Of a stretch of 62,737 bases of DNA, positions 1,073 to 61,980 are shown piece by piece. Source of the DNA: Bacteroidota bacterium (GTDB lineage: Bacteria; Bacteroidota; Ignavibacteria; UBA10030). Position 1 is the stretch's first letter, and every line of letters starts with the position of its first letter. The stretch spans positions 1 through 62,737 of the forward strand of contig JAKAJH010000001.1 of NCBI GenBank assembly GCA_021813905.1, in the 5' to 3' direction. The notes below the pieces were generated by a model. The model worked only from the letters and a program-made list of their open reading frames with translations. It was not told where the DNA came from and did not search any database. The position numbers and the translations under genes were made by a program.

Positions 1073-2014
1073 TCAGGGCGTCTGCCGGATTTCGTCGAGG
1101 ATTTCGTTGCCGCCCTGGCGGATGAGGTCGTGCGCCAGCTCGACCCCCACGCGGGCCGCATCGGTCCGGGGGCCGCGGTGCGTGCCGCGAAGCACGCGTG
1201 CGCCGTCCAGACTGCCGATGACGGCGGACAGTGTCAGCTGATCATCCTGCACCCGTGCGTGCGCGCCGATGGGGATCTGGCATCCGCCCTCCAGCTCGCG
1301 GAGAAATGCGCGTTCGGCCTGGACCGCCGCCGCGGTCGGCTCGTGATGCAGCCGGCGCACAACGTCGAGGATCGTCGCGTCGTCGTTGCGGATCTCCACC
1401 GTCATGGCCCCTTGTCCCACCGCCGGCAACATGAGGTCATAGGGAAGCGTCTCGGTGATGCGATCCGTCCATCCGAGGCGCACGACGCCGGCACGGGCGA
1501 GAATCATGCCGTCCCAGTCCGACTCTTCGAGACGCTTCATGCGCGTGTTCAGATTGCCGCGGATCTCGACGATCTGCAGCTCCGGCCGCGCGTTCAGCAG
1601 CTGGGAGCGTCGCCGCAGGCTGCCGGTGGCCACGACGGCATTCGGCGGAAGTTCCAGGAATCGCCGGTGGGCCTTTCGGGGATGGGCGATGAAGACGTCG
1701 CGGGCGTCCTCCCGTTCGAGGATGGCGCCGATGGTGAGCCCGCCGGGGAGCACGGTCGGCACATCCTTCAGGCTGTGCACGGCGAGATCGATGCGTCCGT
1801 CAAGCAGCGCAAGCTCCAGTTCCTTTGTGAAGAGGCCCTTATCGCCGATCTTGGAGAGCGGCGCGTCGAGGATCTTATCCCCCGTGGTCCTGATGGTGAT
1901 GATCTCGAACGTCGCGGCGGGGAAGAGTGCGGCAAGGCGCTTGCGGACGAAGTGCGTCTGCCACAGGGCCAGTTCACTGCCGCGGGTGCCGATGCGAACG
2001 ATCTCAGGCGTCAT
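1073..2014 (-). CDS. hemC: Hydroxymethylbilane synthase (porphobilinogen deaminase)
   Basis: The 313-residue protein polymerises four porphobilinogen molecules into hydroxymethylbilane. It begins with the family pattern I-G-T-R-G-S-E-L-A-L-W-Q, and contains the S-L-K-D-V-P-T loop. The dipyrromethane cofactor would attach to the cysteine near residue 245 in EGGCQIPIGAHA. Length is standard. The start overlaps the end of hemA by 11 bases, which indicates translational coupling within the heme operon. Confidence 0.97.
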   Translation of the reverse strand: MTPEIVRIGTRGSELALWQTHFVRKRLAALFPAATFEIITIRTTGDKILDAPLSKIGDKGLFTKELELALLDGRIDLAVHSLKDVPTVLPGGLTIGAILEREDARDVFIAHPRKAHRRFLELPPNAVVATGSLRRRSQLLNARPELQIVEIRGNLNTRMKRLEESDWDGMILARAGVVRLGWTDRITETLPYDLMLPAVGQGAMTVEIRNDDATILDVVRRLHHEPTAAAVQAERAFLRELEGGCQIPIGAHARVQDDQLTLSAVIGSLDGARVLRGTHRGPRTDAARVGVELAHDLIRQGGNEILDEIRQTP

Positions 2015-14745: not shown

Positions 14746-15288
14746 TTACACCTTCGTCATGGAACCGATCACCGGGCTCGGCGTCTCGACTTCGTAGAGC
14801 GACGTCTCGCCGAGTTTCGTCAGCACATTGTCGATCCGGTTCGCGGATTCCCGGATCAGTTCCAGCTGTTTTGTTGCGACGGCGTTTCCGGCGGCCGCGC
14901 GGCTTGCCGAGCTGACGGCCAGCGAAATGATCGCCAGCGGATTGTTGATGTGGTGCTGCAGACTCTTGATGACCTGGCGCAGTGTCTCGAGCTGGGTCTC
15001 CCGCTGACGCACGGTCTGTTCCGTGAGCAGTCGCTGCCGCTCGCTCTCGAACAGCCGCGAGCGCACCTCGATGATCTTCACCAGGCTCACGGCCAGGAAC
15101 CACATGAACGGCAGCGCGTCGAAGCTTTCGAACGCCGCGGCAAACGAGATGCCTTCGTGCTGCACCCGCAGGTAGAACCGGATGATGGTGAAGAGCAGGT
15201 AGCTGTAGAGGACGACGCCGGAGAGAAGCGCGGGGTAGCGGGTGAAGAAATCACGGATGAAGGAGAACACGAATCGGAGGCGTTTCAT
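14746..15288 (-). CDS. Membrane-anchored histidine-kinase DHp protein lacking an ATPase domain
   Basis: From the ATG at 15288 (GAGGAG lies 6-11 bases upstream) the protein has 180 residues. Two membrane helices (about 17-40 and 62-80) precede a charged coiled coil (about 82-110). An H-box-like segment follows, H-H-I-N-N-P-L-A, near residue 112, with a second helix of the DHp hairpin after it. The protein ends about 60 residues later, before any N, G1 or G2 box. It therefore has the phosphoacceptor/dimerisation part of a kinase without a catalytic domain. It may act as a phosphotransfer protein, need a kinase domain in trans, or be a relic. It is convergent with the permease gene. Confidence 0.75.
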   Translation of the reverse strand: MKRLRFVFSFIRDFFTRYPALLSGVVLYSYLLFTIIRFYLRVQHEGISFAAAFESFDALPFMWFLAVSLVKIIEVRSRLFESERQRLLTEQTVRQRETQLETLRQVIKSLQHHINNPLAIISLAVSSASRAAAGNAVATKQLELIRESANRIDNVLTKLGETSLYEVETPSPVIGSMTKV

Positions 15289-15455
15289 GGAATCTCCTCG
15301 GACGTTCGACCGCCTGATGCGTGAGAATGCTACCGGGCGTAACCTAGTCACTTTTCCACAATACTACAACCGCGGCGGAACCGCCGTTGCCTTTCGGAAG
15401 CGGGATATCTATATTCGTTGGCAAATGCTCTTCTCATGAGATGAAAGGATGTGAC

Positions 15456-59343: not shown

Positions 59344-60030
59344 TCACACGGCGGAATTTCCCTCCCCGGCGCCGTGGAAATCGATCCGCTCGAAATTGAG
59401 GTCGCGCAGCCGGCGGATCTCCAGCTCGATGCGGCGGAAATGCCGGCTCAGTTCATCCATCAGCCGGCGTTCCTCAGGGCTCTGGATGCTGCGGTCGATG
59501 AGGTCGGCGCTGATCTTGACCGCGGCAAGCGGATTGTTGAATTCGTGGCAGACGGTGACCACAAGCTCCCGAATCGCCTGGGCCCGATTCTCGGCCATGG
59601 CCATGCGTTTTTCCACAGCCTGCAATTGCCGGCGCATCAGGACCAGATCGACGATCTTCGCGATCGTGCGGGGAAGATCGGACTTTTCGAGGTTTTCCTT
59701 GAAGAGCACATCTTCCACCCCCAGTTTCATGGCCTCGACGGCCAACTTGAAATCCCGGGTGCCGGTGAGGAAAACAATGGGGATCTGCCTGTTCATCTGG
59801 TTCAATCGAAGGCAGAATTCGAGCCCGTTTGAGCGGGAGAACGTATAGTCGGTGACGATTACGTCAAAGGCGATTTCGCCTTCGAGTTCAAGCAGCGCAT
59901 CTTCGACGGAATTCTTCCAGTGGAGCTTGAAGGCGAAACCCTCTGCCGTCTCCAACTGCCTCCGGACGCTGTTGGCGAAGTCCGCACTTTCGTCAACGAG
60001 CAGAACCGTGATGGTTTTACTCTCTTTCAT
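59344..60030 (-). CDS. Receiver-DHp fusion protein without an ATPase domain
   Basis: The 228-residue protein has a CheY-like receiver (about 8-125): acidic pair in LLVDES, phospho-acceptor Asp in VIVTDYTFSRSNG (near 60), Thr in VFLTGT and Lys in VLFKEN, all present. A helical linker leads to a DHp domain (about 140-205) with H-box V-C-H-E-F-N-N-P-L-A-A (His near 165). The protein stops about 64 residues after the His, before an ATP-binding domain. It could move phosphate between a receiver Asp and a DHp His, or act with a separate kinase domain. It is divergent from the lone receiver gene. Confidence 0.8.
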   Translation of the reverse strand: MKESKTITVLLVDESADFANSVRRQLETAEGFAFKLHWKNSVEDALLELEGEIAFDVIVTDYTFSRSNGLEFCLRLNQMNRQIPIVFLTGTRDFKLAVEAMKLGVEDVLFKENLEKSDLPRTIAKIVDLVLMRRQLQAVEKRMAMAENRAQAIRELVVTVCHEFNNPLAAVKISADLIDRSIQSPEERRLMDELSRHFRRIELEIRRLRDLNFERIDFHGAGEGNSAV

Positions 60031-60223: not shown

Positions 60224-60595
60224 ATGCCGACGAAGAACCGAATCCTTGTCGTCGATGATGAGGAGGCGCTCCGAATCGTTCTCAGCGCAGAGCTGGAAGG
60301 GGAAGGATACCAGGTGACGAATGCCGGAGACGGTCAGGAAGCCATCAATATCCTCGCGACGAATGAATTCGACCTGATCCTCCTCGACATCAAGATGCCG
60401 AATGTGGACGGATTCGAAGTGCTGAAGTACGTGAAGGAGCACAGCCCGAAGACAAAGGTGGTGATGCTGACGGGCTTTGCGGACCTGAAGAACGCGATCG
60501 AATCGAAAAAGCTCGGCGCCGAGGATTTCGTCAGCAAACCGTATGATCTGGTTGATCTGCTGACGACGGTGGAACGGGTGCTCACCGGGGCCTGA
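60224..60595 (+). CDS. Stand-alone response-regulator receiver protein
   Basis: The 123-residue protein is a single CheY-like receiver: acidic pair in LVVDDEEA, phospho-acceptor Asp in LILLDIKMPNVDG (near 54), Thr in MLTGFAD and Lys in FVSKPYD. No output domain follows. GAGGAG lies nine bases before the ATG at 60224. It is close in sequence to the receiver of the next protein, so one may have arisen from the other. It could act as a phosphate shuttle for the NtrC-type regulator. Confidence 0.92.
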   Translation: MPTKNRILVVDDEEALRIVLSAELEGEGYQVTNAGDGQEAINILATNEFDLILLDIKMPNVDGFEVLKYVKEHSPKTKVVMLTGFADLKNAIESKKLGAEDFVSKPYDLVDLLTTVERVLTGA

Positions 60596-60618: not shown

Positions 60619-61980
60619 ATGTCCAAGAAACACCGGATTCTCGTCGTCGACGACGAAGAGTCTATTACCTTCCTCCTGAAAACCGAACTCGACGACCTCA
60701 CGGAGTTTGAAACCGACACCGCGCTGAACGGCGCGGATGCCATCAATCTCCTCCAGTCCAACGTCTATGATGTGGTGTTGTTGGACGTCAAGATGCCGCG
60801 CGTCAGCGGGCTTGAAGTGCTGAAACAGGTGAAAGAGCTCGCCCCCGCCACACAAGTCATCATGCTGACGAATCTTGTCGACGTGAAGACGGCGATCGAG
60901 ACGACGAAGTTGGGCGCGTACGATTTCATCAGCAAGCCGTACGACATCGACCAGCTGCTGGTCACCGTGCGTCGGGCCGTCGAGCATCGCCAGCTGGTCA
61001 TCAGCCGGGAGGTGAGCCTCATCAGCAAGAGCGTGGAGCTGGTGGGCCAGACGCCGGTGTTTCGGGAAGCGATCCAGAACGCGCTCAAGCTCGCCGCGAG
61101 TGAGGCCTTCGTGCTCATTCAGGGAGCGAGCGGCACGGGAAAAGAACTGTTCGCGCAGCTCATTCACAACAACAGCGCGCGACGGGATCAGCCCTTCATC
61201 GCGGTCAATTGCGCCGCGATGCCGGACCAGCTGCTGGAGAGCGAGCTGTTCGGGCATGAGAAGGGATCCTTCACCAGTGCCGTGAAGACGAAAGAAGGAC
61301 TGGTGGAAGTGGCGAACGGGGGAACGCTGTTCCTGGACGAAGTGGGTGACATCAGTCCGATGGTCCAGCCGAAGATGCTTCGATTCCTGGAGATGGGCGA
61401 GTTCCGGCGCGTTGGCGGTACGACCACGCGCAAGGTCGATGTGCGTGTCATCTCGGCGACGAATAAGAACCTCCAGGAGGAGGTCACGGCGGGACGGTTC
61501 CGCGCGGATCTGCTGTACCGGCTGAACGTGGTCAATCTTCATCTTCCGTCGCTTCGCGAACGCCCCGAGGACATCGCGTCGCTGGTCGAACACTTCCTTT
61601 CCAAGAAGTCCAAGGCCAAGCGCATCAGTCCGGAGGCGATGCACGTGCTGCAGACCTATCACTGGCCCGGCAACGTGCGCGAGTTGAAGCATATCATTGA
61701 AGGGGCGGTGGCGGTCGCTTCCGGCGATCTGATTGAGCCGAAAGATCTTTGGATGAATGCCGCGCTCAACCAGCAGGCGGTCGCGCAACTTCCTCCGGCA
61801 CCGTCGCTTCCCGCCGGTACGCCCATCTCGCTTGAGTCCATGGAGCGTCTGCACATCGAGCACGCGCTCAAGCACTTCGGATGGAATCGGGCGAAGACCG
61901 CCCTGGCCCTGGGCATCACCCCAAAGACACTCTATCTGAAGATCAAGCGCTACCGCATCGCCATCCCCTCGGAGTCGTGA
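60619..61980 (+). CDS. NtrC-type sigma-54 response regulator with a GSFTSA loop
   Basis: The 453-residue protein has a receiver (about 1-122; phospho-Asp in VVLLDVKMPRVSG), an AAA+ domain (about 145-370) with Walker A GASGTGKELFAQ and Walker B GGTLFLDEVGDIS, and a Fis-type helix-turn-helix (about 415-448; WNRAKTALALGITPKTLYLKIKRYRI). The sigma-54-contacting loop reads E-K-G-S-F-T-S-A where nearly all relatives have E-K-G-A-F-T-G-A. The arginine finger region (FRADLLYRLNVV) is normal. It probably activates sigma-54 promoters on phosphorylation. It follows the lone receiver by 23 bases. Confidence 0.94.
   Translation: MSKKHRILVVDDEESITFLLKTELDDLTEFETDTALNGADAINLLQSNVYDVVLLDVKMPRVSGLEVLKQVKELAPATQVIMLTNLVDVKTAIETTKLGAYDFISKPYDIDQLLVTVRRAVEHRQLVISREVSLISKSVELVGQTPVFREAIQNALKLAASEAFVLIQGASGTGKELFAQLIHNNSARRDQPFIAVNCAAMPDQLLESELFGHEKGSFTSAVKTKEGLVEVANGGTLFLDEVGDISPMVQPKMLRFLEMGEFRRVGGTTTRKVDVRVISATNKNLQEEVTAGRFRADLLYRLNVVNLHLPSLRERPEDIASLVEHFLSKKSKAKRISPEAMHVLQTYHWPGNVRELKHIIEGAVAVASGDLIEPKDLWMNAALNQQAVAQLPPAPSLPAGTPISLESMERLHIEHALKHFGWNRAKTALALGITPKTLYLKIKRYRIAIPSES

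Follow-up and report, generated by a model that had tools for sequence, protein, structure and literature searches.

The window analysed here is a stretch of 62,737 nucleotides from contig JAKAJH010000001.1 of a Bacteroidota bacterium. On its minus strand, positions 59344-60030 encode a 228-residue protein, here called A, in which a receiver is joined to a DHp domain and no ATPase domain follows, as judged from the open reading frame, the Pfam matches and orthologues throughout the order. A plus-strand reading of the same interval contains a stop and was rejected. The receiver occupies residues 9-113 (59692-60006, minus strand; Pfam PF00072, Response_reg, 60.2 bits, and conservation) and the HisKA/DHp hairpin residues 154-211 (59398-59571, minus strand; PF00512, 29.5 bits), both matches being over the Pfam cut-offs. 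The earlier note on this DNA had read the receiver residues and the H-box histidine as intact, and indeed the acidic pair D13/E14, the phospho-acceptor D61 (codon 59848-59850, minus strand), T89 and K111 are all present, as is H162 (codon 59545-59547, minus strand) in the H-box TVCHEFNNPLAAVKIS. The lack of an ATPase domain, which it had also pointed out, is likewise confirmed: HATPase (PF02518) is absent from A according to Pfam, and profile matches over the genome place none near the gene. HPt (PF01627) is not among the Pfam matches of A at 0.001, the match being to HisKA. The C-terminus lies about 67 residues past the histidine, with the last residues modelled at low confidence, and the stop codon is followed after 195 bp by the next gene, a NIF3 homologue; with no HATPase match nearby either, a broken ATPase domain would not fit in here.

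Divergently from A, on the plus strand, lie a single-domain response regulator (60224-60595; PF00072, 112 bits) and an NtrC-type activator built, by Pfam, from a receiver, a sigma-54 AAA+ domain and a Fis-type HTH (60619-61980), the same two neighbours that the earlier note had described. The lone receiver is 52% identical to the receiver of the activator. The activator has the loop motif GSFTSA in place of GAFTGA, and rpoN is present in the genome; across the examined orthologues of the activator, the sigma-54 loop reads G[AS]FT[NSD]A. In 57 of the 65 loci with enough flank, A is divergently adjoined by both genes of the pair, lone receiver and NtrC-type activator; in the other eight (8/65) it stands apart from them. 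In family f3 and in genome G002, where A is away from the pair, the genomes examined still carry the pair at another place. Genome G035 has retained the pair and is missing A, whose place is taken by what we presume, from reading its sequence by eye, to be an IspE-like gene. Families f10 and f61 have a second arrangement, in which, at 11/11 loci, the gene of a receiver-DHp protein with the H-box motif SHE[LIV]NNPLAA is followed at a distance of -3 to +7 nt by that of an NtrC-type activator, with no lone receiver at the locus; in the tree, the f10 activators group with the NtrC clade of the A loci with modest support (87/69). Both arrangements, divergent trio and direct gene pair, thus link this architecture with an activator of the NtrC type, and the gene neighbourhoods of the wider set of loci support the link that had been suspected from the window sequence. 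The A loci examined have no conserved HATPase or kinase gene next to A.

Further features were seen around these and related genes. In f10 (L196-L198, L251, L252) the receiver-DHp/NtrC pair follows ftsZ, in a cell-division cluster, and in L251 and L252 an ftsA-like gene also precedes it. In f3 (L083, L084, L087, L096) a GAF-GAF-GGDEF protein, whose N-terminus is hydrophobic and whose domains were assigned by Pfam on L084 only, is divergent from A instead of the pair. Elsewhere in the window's own genome (contig C84, locus L227), a complete receiver-DHp-ATPase kinase (289-1473) stands directly upstream of an NtrC-type activator (1483-2862) related to the one in the window. Another ATPase-less DHp of this genome is found in the window itself at 14746-15351 (minus strand), in a protein of 201 residues in which hydrophobic and probably membrane-spanning stretches precede the DHp (SLQHHINNPLAII). 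At locus L132, a HisKA-only open reading frame of 98 residues (1456-1752, minus strand; ALSHELRTPLTSIIGF) lies beside an NtrC-type activator.

The short architecture is shared by the orthologues. A match to A at 1e-15, paralogues included, is present in 57 of 61 related genomes, and the full-length orthologues are of about equal length and end some 53-67 residues after the histidine. Members of the family are present in the order of this bacterium and in families f58, f10 and f61, which share its class; a search of 395 genomes sampled across the phylum found it, at 1e-30, in that class only. When 84,980 species were scanned with peptide patterns, an approach insensitive to divergent relatives, the hits were this clade and one remote protein of 396 residues (L081). 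The earlier note had proposed a search for the same architecture in related genomes and had named two findings that would speak against its reading, a frameshifted ATPase domain beside the gene and a mutated H-box histidine in most homologues. Short orthologues prove to be spread across the order and into neighbouring families, an ATPase domain is missing from all of those examined, and the A clade keeps its histidine throughout.

Among the 60 sequences assigned to the A clade by score, H162, E163 (H+1), F164, N165, N166 (H+4), P167 and L168 are each found in 60/60; in the tree, a supported branch separates each of A, B, F10 and C from the rest, with A represented by a subset of 30 sequences. 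As the locus set had been drawn partly with an H-box peptide pattern, the histidine was recounted on sequences found otherwise, and there it is present in 43/43. A further set of 66 A sequences was sorted by the motif HEFNNP, which makes it circular for the histidine (66/66), and only its receiver counts are used below. Mean entropy in A is 0.28 bits over residues 156-176 and 1.56 over the receiver. In paralogue B, which is found in the same genome and in most relatives, the architecture is the same and the receiver is intact, but the H-box has dissolved: mean entropy is 2.03 in the H-box region and 1.32 in the receiver, and a histidine stands at the H-box position in two closely related B sequences (L104, L110). 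B serves as a built-in control, since the loss of the histidine from most of its members means that the architecture by itself does not preserve it, and the invariance in A of the series H/E/F/N/N/P/L, most of which varies freely in B, points to chemistry at the A site. The comparison supports the view that the histidine of A is selectively kept despite the missing kinase domain. N166 also gives A the Asn/Thr at H+4 that is a feature of bifunctional HisKA phosphatases.

Paralogue B, with its receiver and mostly His-less DHp, was seen at L002 (1468-2178, plus strand), L102, L118, L255 and other loci. At 11 of 25 testable loci, the gene immediately upstream of it resembles the PAS/GAF-HisKA-HATPase kinase of L102, while the B gene of the window's own genome instead adjoins LemA-like and NAD-synthase-like genes. 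L120 and L121 carry a third receiver-DHp type (C, motif HELNNPMA) in tandem copies.

The fused receiver has been kept less strictly. Its phospho-acceptor aspartate, intact in the window protein, is present in 61 of the 66 A sequences and is replaced by glutamate in L063, by asparagine in L090 and L258 and by serine in L036, while L254 has lost the whole receiver active site (Asp, Thr and Lys); the H-box is intact in all five. The aspartate-less sequences belong to different families or genera, which suggests about four separate losses; draft-genome errors are possible for the single sequences, the asparagine, however, being found in two genomes. The aspartate is kept in the lone receiver (64/64), in the NtrC receiver (60/60) and in the receiver-DHp proteins of f10 and f61 (11/11). 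Its presence in 61/66 A sequences implies that phosphorylation of the fused receiver usually matters; to judge from the residues lost, however, the receiver is dispensable as an Asp carrier in some lineages.

An AlphaFold2 model of A (53 sequences; mean pLDDT 88, pTM 0.69) predicts that the last receiver helix runs unbroken into the DHp, so that receiver alpha5, signalling helix and DHp alpha1 would form one helix over residues 118-179 (59494-59679, minus strand), followed by a second at 185-209. His162 lies about 44 residues from the start of the long helix and, as estimated from helical rise rather than from model coordinates, about 60 Å along it from the receiver. The spacing between K111 and H162 is 51 in 60/60 A sequences, compared with 47 in B and 48 in C, and this fixed spacing together with the predicted continuous helix makes for a likeness to receiver-controlled kinases. 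A test for hydrophobic heptads along the linker of A is not significant (3306 of 10000 shuffles were as high). The fold comparison lists hold mostly receiver matches (model residues 4-136), with the DHp part barely covered.

On balance, we lean towards A being a receiver-gated, ATP-independent DHp enzyme that would transfer phosphate between the neighbouring receivers and/or remove it from them. The points on which this interpretation builds are established at the level of sequence and comparison: the architecture, the absence of the ATPase domain, the invariance of H, E and N, the genomic pairing and the dispensability of the receiver aspartate in some lineages. We picture A as a presumed dimer, resembling a receiver-controlled NtrB-class kinase stripped of its ATPase domain, with the His162 face docking on the lone receiver and the NtrC-type activator encoded next door. 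Phosphoryl groups would be exchanged between these two, presumably from Asp to His to Asp, and/or Asn166 would strip phosphate from NtrC~P. The receiver of A itself would be mainly a regulatory input, phosphorylated by a putative upstream kinase, and its phosphorylation would shift the continuous signalling helix and so gate the DHp, as in LvrB. Even with no ATPase domain, a DHp is able to accept phosphate from a receiver, to donate it to one or to hydrolyse it. A bifunctional enzyme is favoured because A keeps both the H+4 asparagine and the H+1 acid. In CrdS, the H+4 asparagine is needed for phosphatase activity and not for phosphotransfer, and the H+1 acid for autophosphorylation and not for phosphatase activity (PMC3510030). 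By the role of that CrdS glutamate, a pure phosphatase would leave the invariance of E163 in A unexplained. Against the proposal count also the eight loci in which A is away from the pair, genome G035 with its pair and no A, the aspartate kept by most fused receivers, the heptad result and one later study, in which the isolated EnvZ DHp had no phosphatase activity in mammalian cells (PMC8971529). A wider generalisation, which we offer tentatively as a possibility, is that in several families of a class a receiver-gated, ATP-free DHp of the A type may take over from the sensor kinase in partnering an NtrC-type activator, and that here the receiver can decay and the histidine site cannot, with the reverse in the sister paralogue.

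The main rival, which we consider unlikely although it deserves attention, is an internal relay resembling a Spo0F-Spo0B fusion, in which an upstream kinase would phosphorylate the receiver aspartate of A, which would pass the phosphate to His162 of the same dimer and on to NtrC and/or the lone receiver. The intact receiver active site of the window protein and the retention of the aspartate in most A sequences and in all of those from f10 and f61 agree with it, and in f10 and f61, whose loci have no lone receiver, the fused receiver is the sole obvious donor. An obligatory Asp-His step within the protein is hard to reconcile, however, with the loss of the aspartate in about four lineages whose H-box is untouched, and the continuous helix and the roughly 44 residues to the histidine make transfer within a dimer look sterically hard in the model, transfer between dimers being possible. 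The relay put forward in the earlier note is therefore supported as far as the link to the neighbours goes (57/65 and 11/11) and is not supported as a general rule for its internal step; working in the manner of Spo0B or ChpT, which the note had also suggested, is the likely mode for A.

A split kinase, in which either an ATPase domain on a protein of its own or a full kinase would phosphorylate His162 in trans or through a mixed dimer, seems improbable to us. CheA3 and CheA4 are a precedent for such trans phosphorylation. Some HATPase matches in the window's own genome have no HisKA match beside them, and the H+1 glutamate that CrdS requires for autophosphorylation (PMC3510030) is invariant in A. 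On the other side, the neighbourhood of A has no conserved gene for a HATPase or kinase. The acidic residue at H+1 is also found in Spo0B and ChpT, which do not use ATP.

Slightly less probable still is a non-catalytic adaptor, whose DHp would be a platform for dimerisation and docking with an idle histidine. Paralogue B, which has kept its receiver and mostly lost its histidine within the same architecture, would fit such a role, and dimerisation and protein-protein interaction were suggested by Galperin et al. for archaeal receiver-HisKA proteins without HATPase (PMC5847659); an idle site, however, sits poorly with seven residues that are invariant in A and mostly free to vary in B. That A is a kinase cut short by truncation or a frameshift, or else an artefact of assembly, for which the missing domain is itself the only support, we regard as virtually ruled out by the shared length and end of the orthologues across the order and neighbouring families, by the absence of an ATPase domain from every one examined and by the lack of space before the next gene.

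The receiver-gated DHp enzyme that we favour belongs to a kind of protein already on record in archaea, namely a receiver-HisKA without HATPase, whereas Spo0B, ChpT and PhyT have no fused receiver. The archaeal response regulators of the AF_1472 type combine receiver and HisKA in one protein without HATPase, as A does, and are experimentally unstudied and without known partners (PMC5847659). They additionally carry PAS and/or GAF domains, while A has neither, belongs to a conserved bacterial family and has partners indicated by its gene neighbourhood. Literature searches found no experimental study of the exact bacterial architecture, which is no proof that none exists. With its candidate partners, a conserved locus, a sister that has mostly lost the histidine and natural variants whose receiver is dead, the A family makes the question of relay, dephosphorylation or docking in receiver-HisKA proteins directly testable.

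Spo0B and ChpT each have a DHp-type histidine and no kinase activity and pass phosphate between receivers, which by analogy is what we propose for A. Spo0B carries a C-terminal degenerate ATPase-like domain. ChpT has such a domain too, and serves both the DNA-binding regulator CtrA and the single receiver CpdR (PMC9981736). Neither has a receiver, while A has one fused in front and no such domain behind. PhyT, acting with SdrG and PhyR, may be likened to A as a phosphotransferase that derives from a kinase, connects a single-domain receiver with an output regulator and has a negative role besides; unlike A, it is membrane-bound, has a suspected degenerated catalytic domain and a different output, and is described without a fused receiver (PMC5898713). 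The DHp half of NtrB resembles A in being a HisKA with Asn/Thr at H+4 that acts on NtrC, but is a piece of a complete kinase.

A further likeness in domain order is to LvrB (PMC13269768; PDB 8vc9), in which receiver, signalling helix and a HEINNPL-type DHp follow one another as in A, and which aligns to A over residues 14-213 with the histidine in register. The N-terminal receiver joined to the DHp by a continuous helix, as in LvrB, is also what the model of A predicts, and the Lys-to-His spacing is about 55 in LvrB (counted in the alignment) versus 51 in A. On receiver phosphorylation the LvrB helix forms a coiled coil and the ATPase domain is freed (PMC13269768); LvrB has an ATPase domain and autophosphorylates, whereas A has no such domain.
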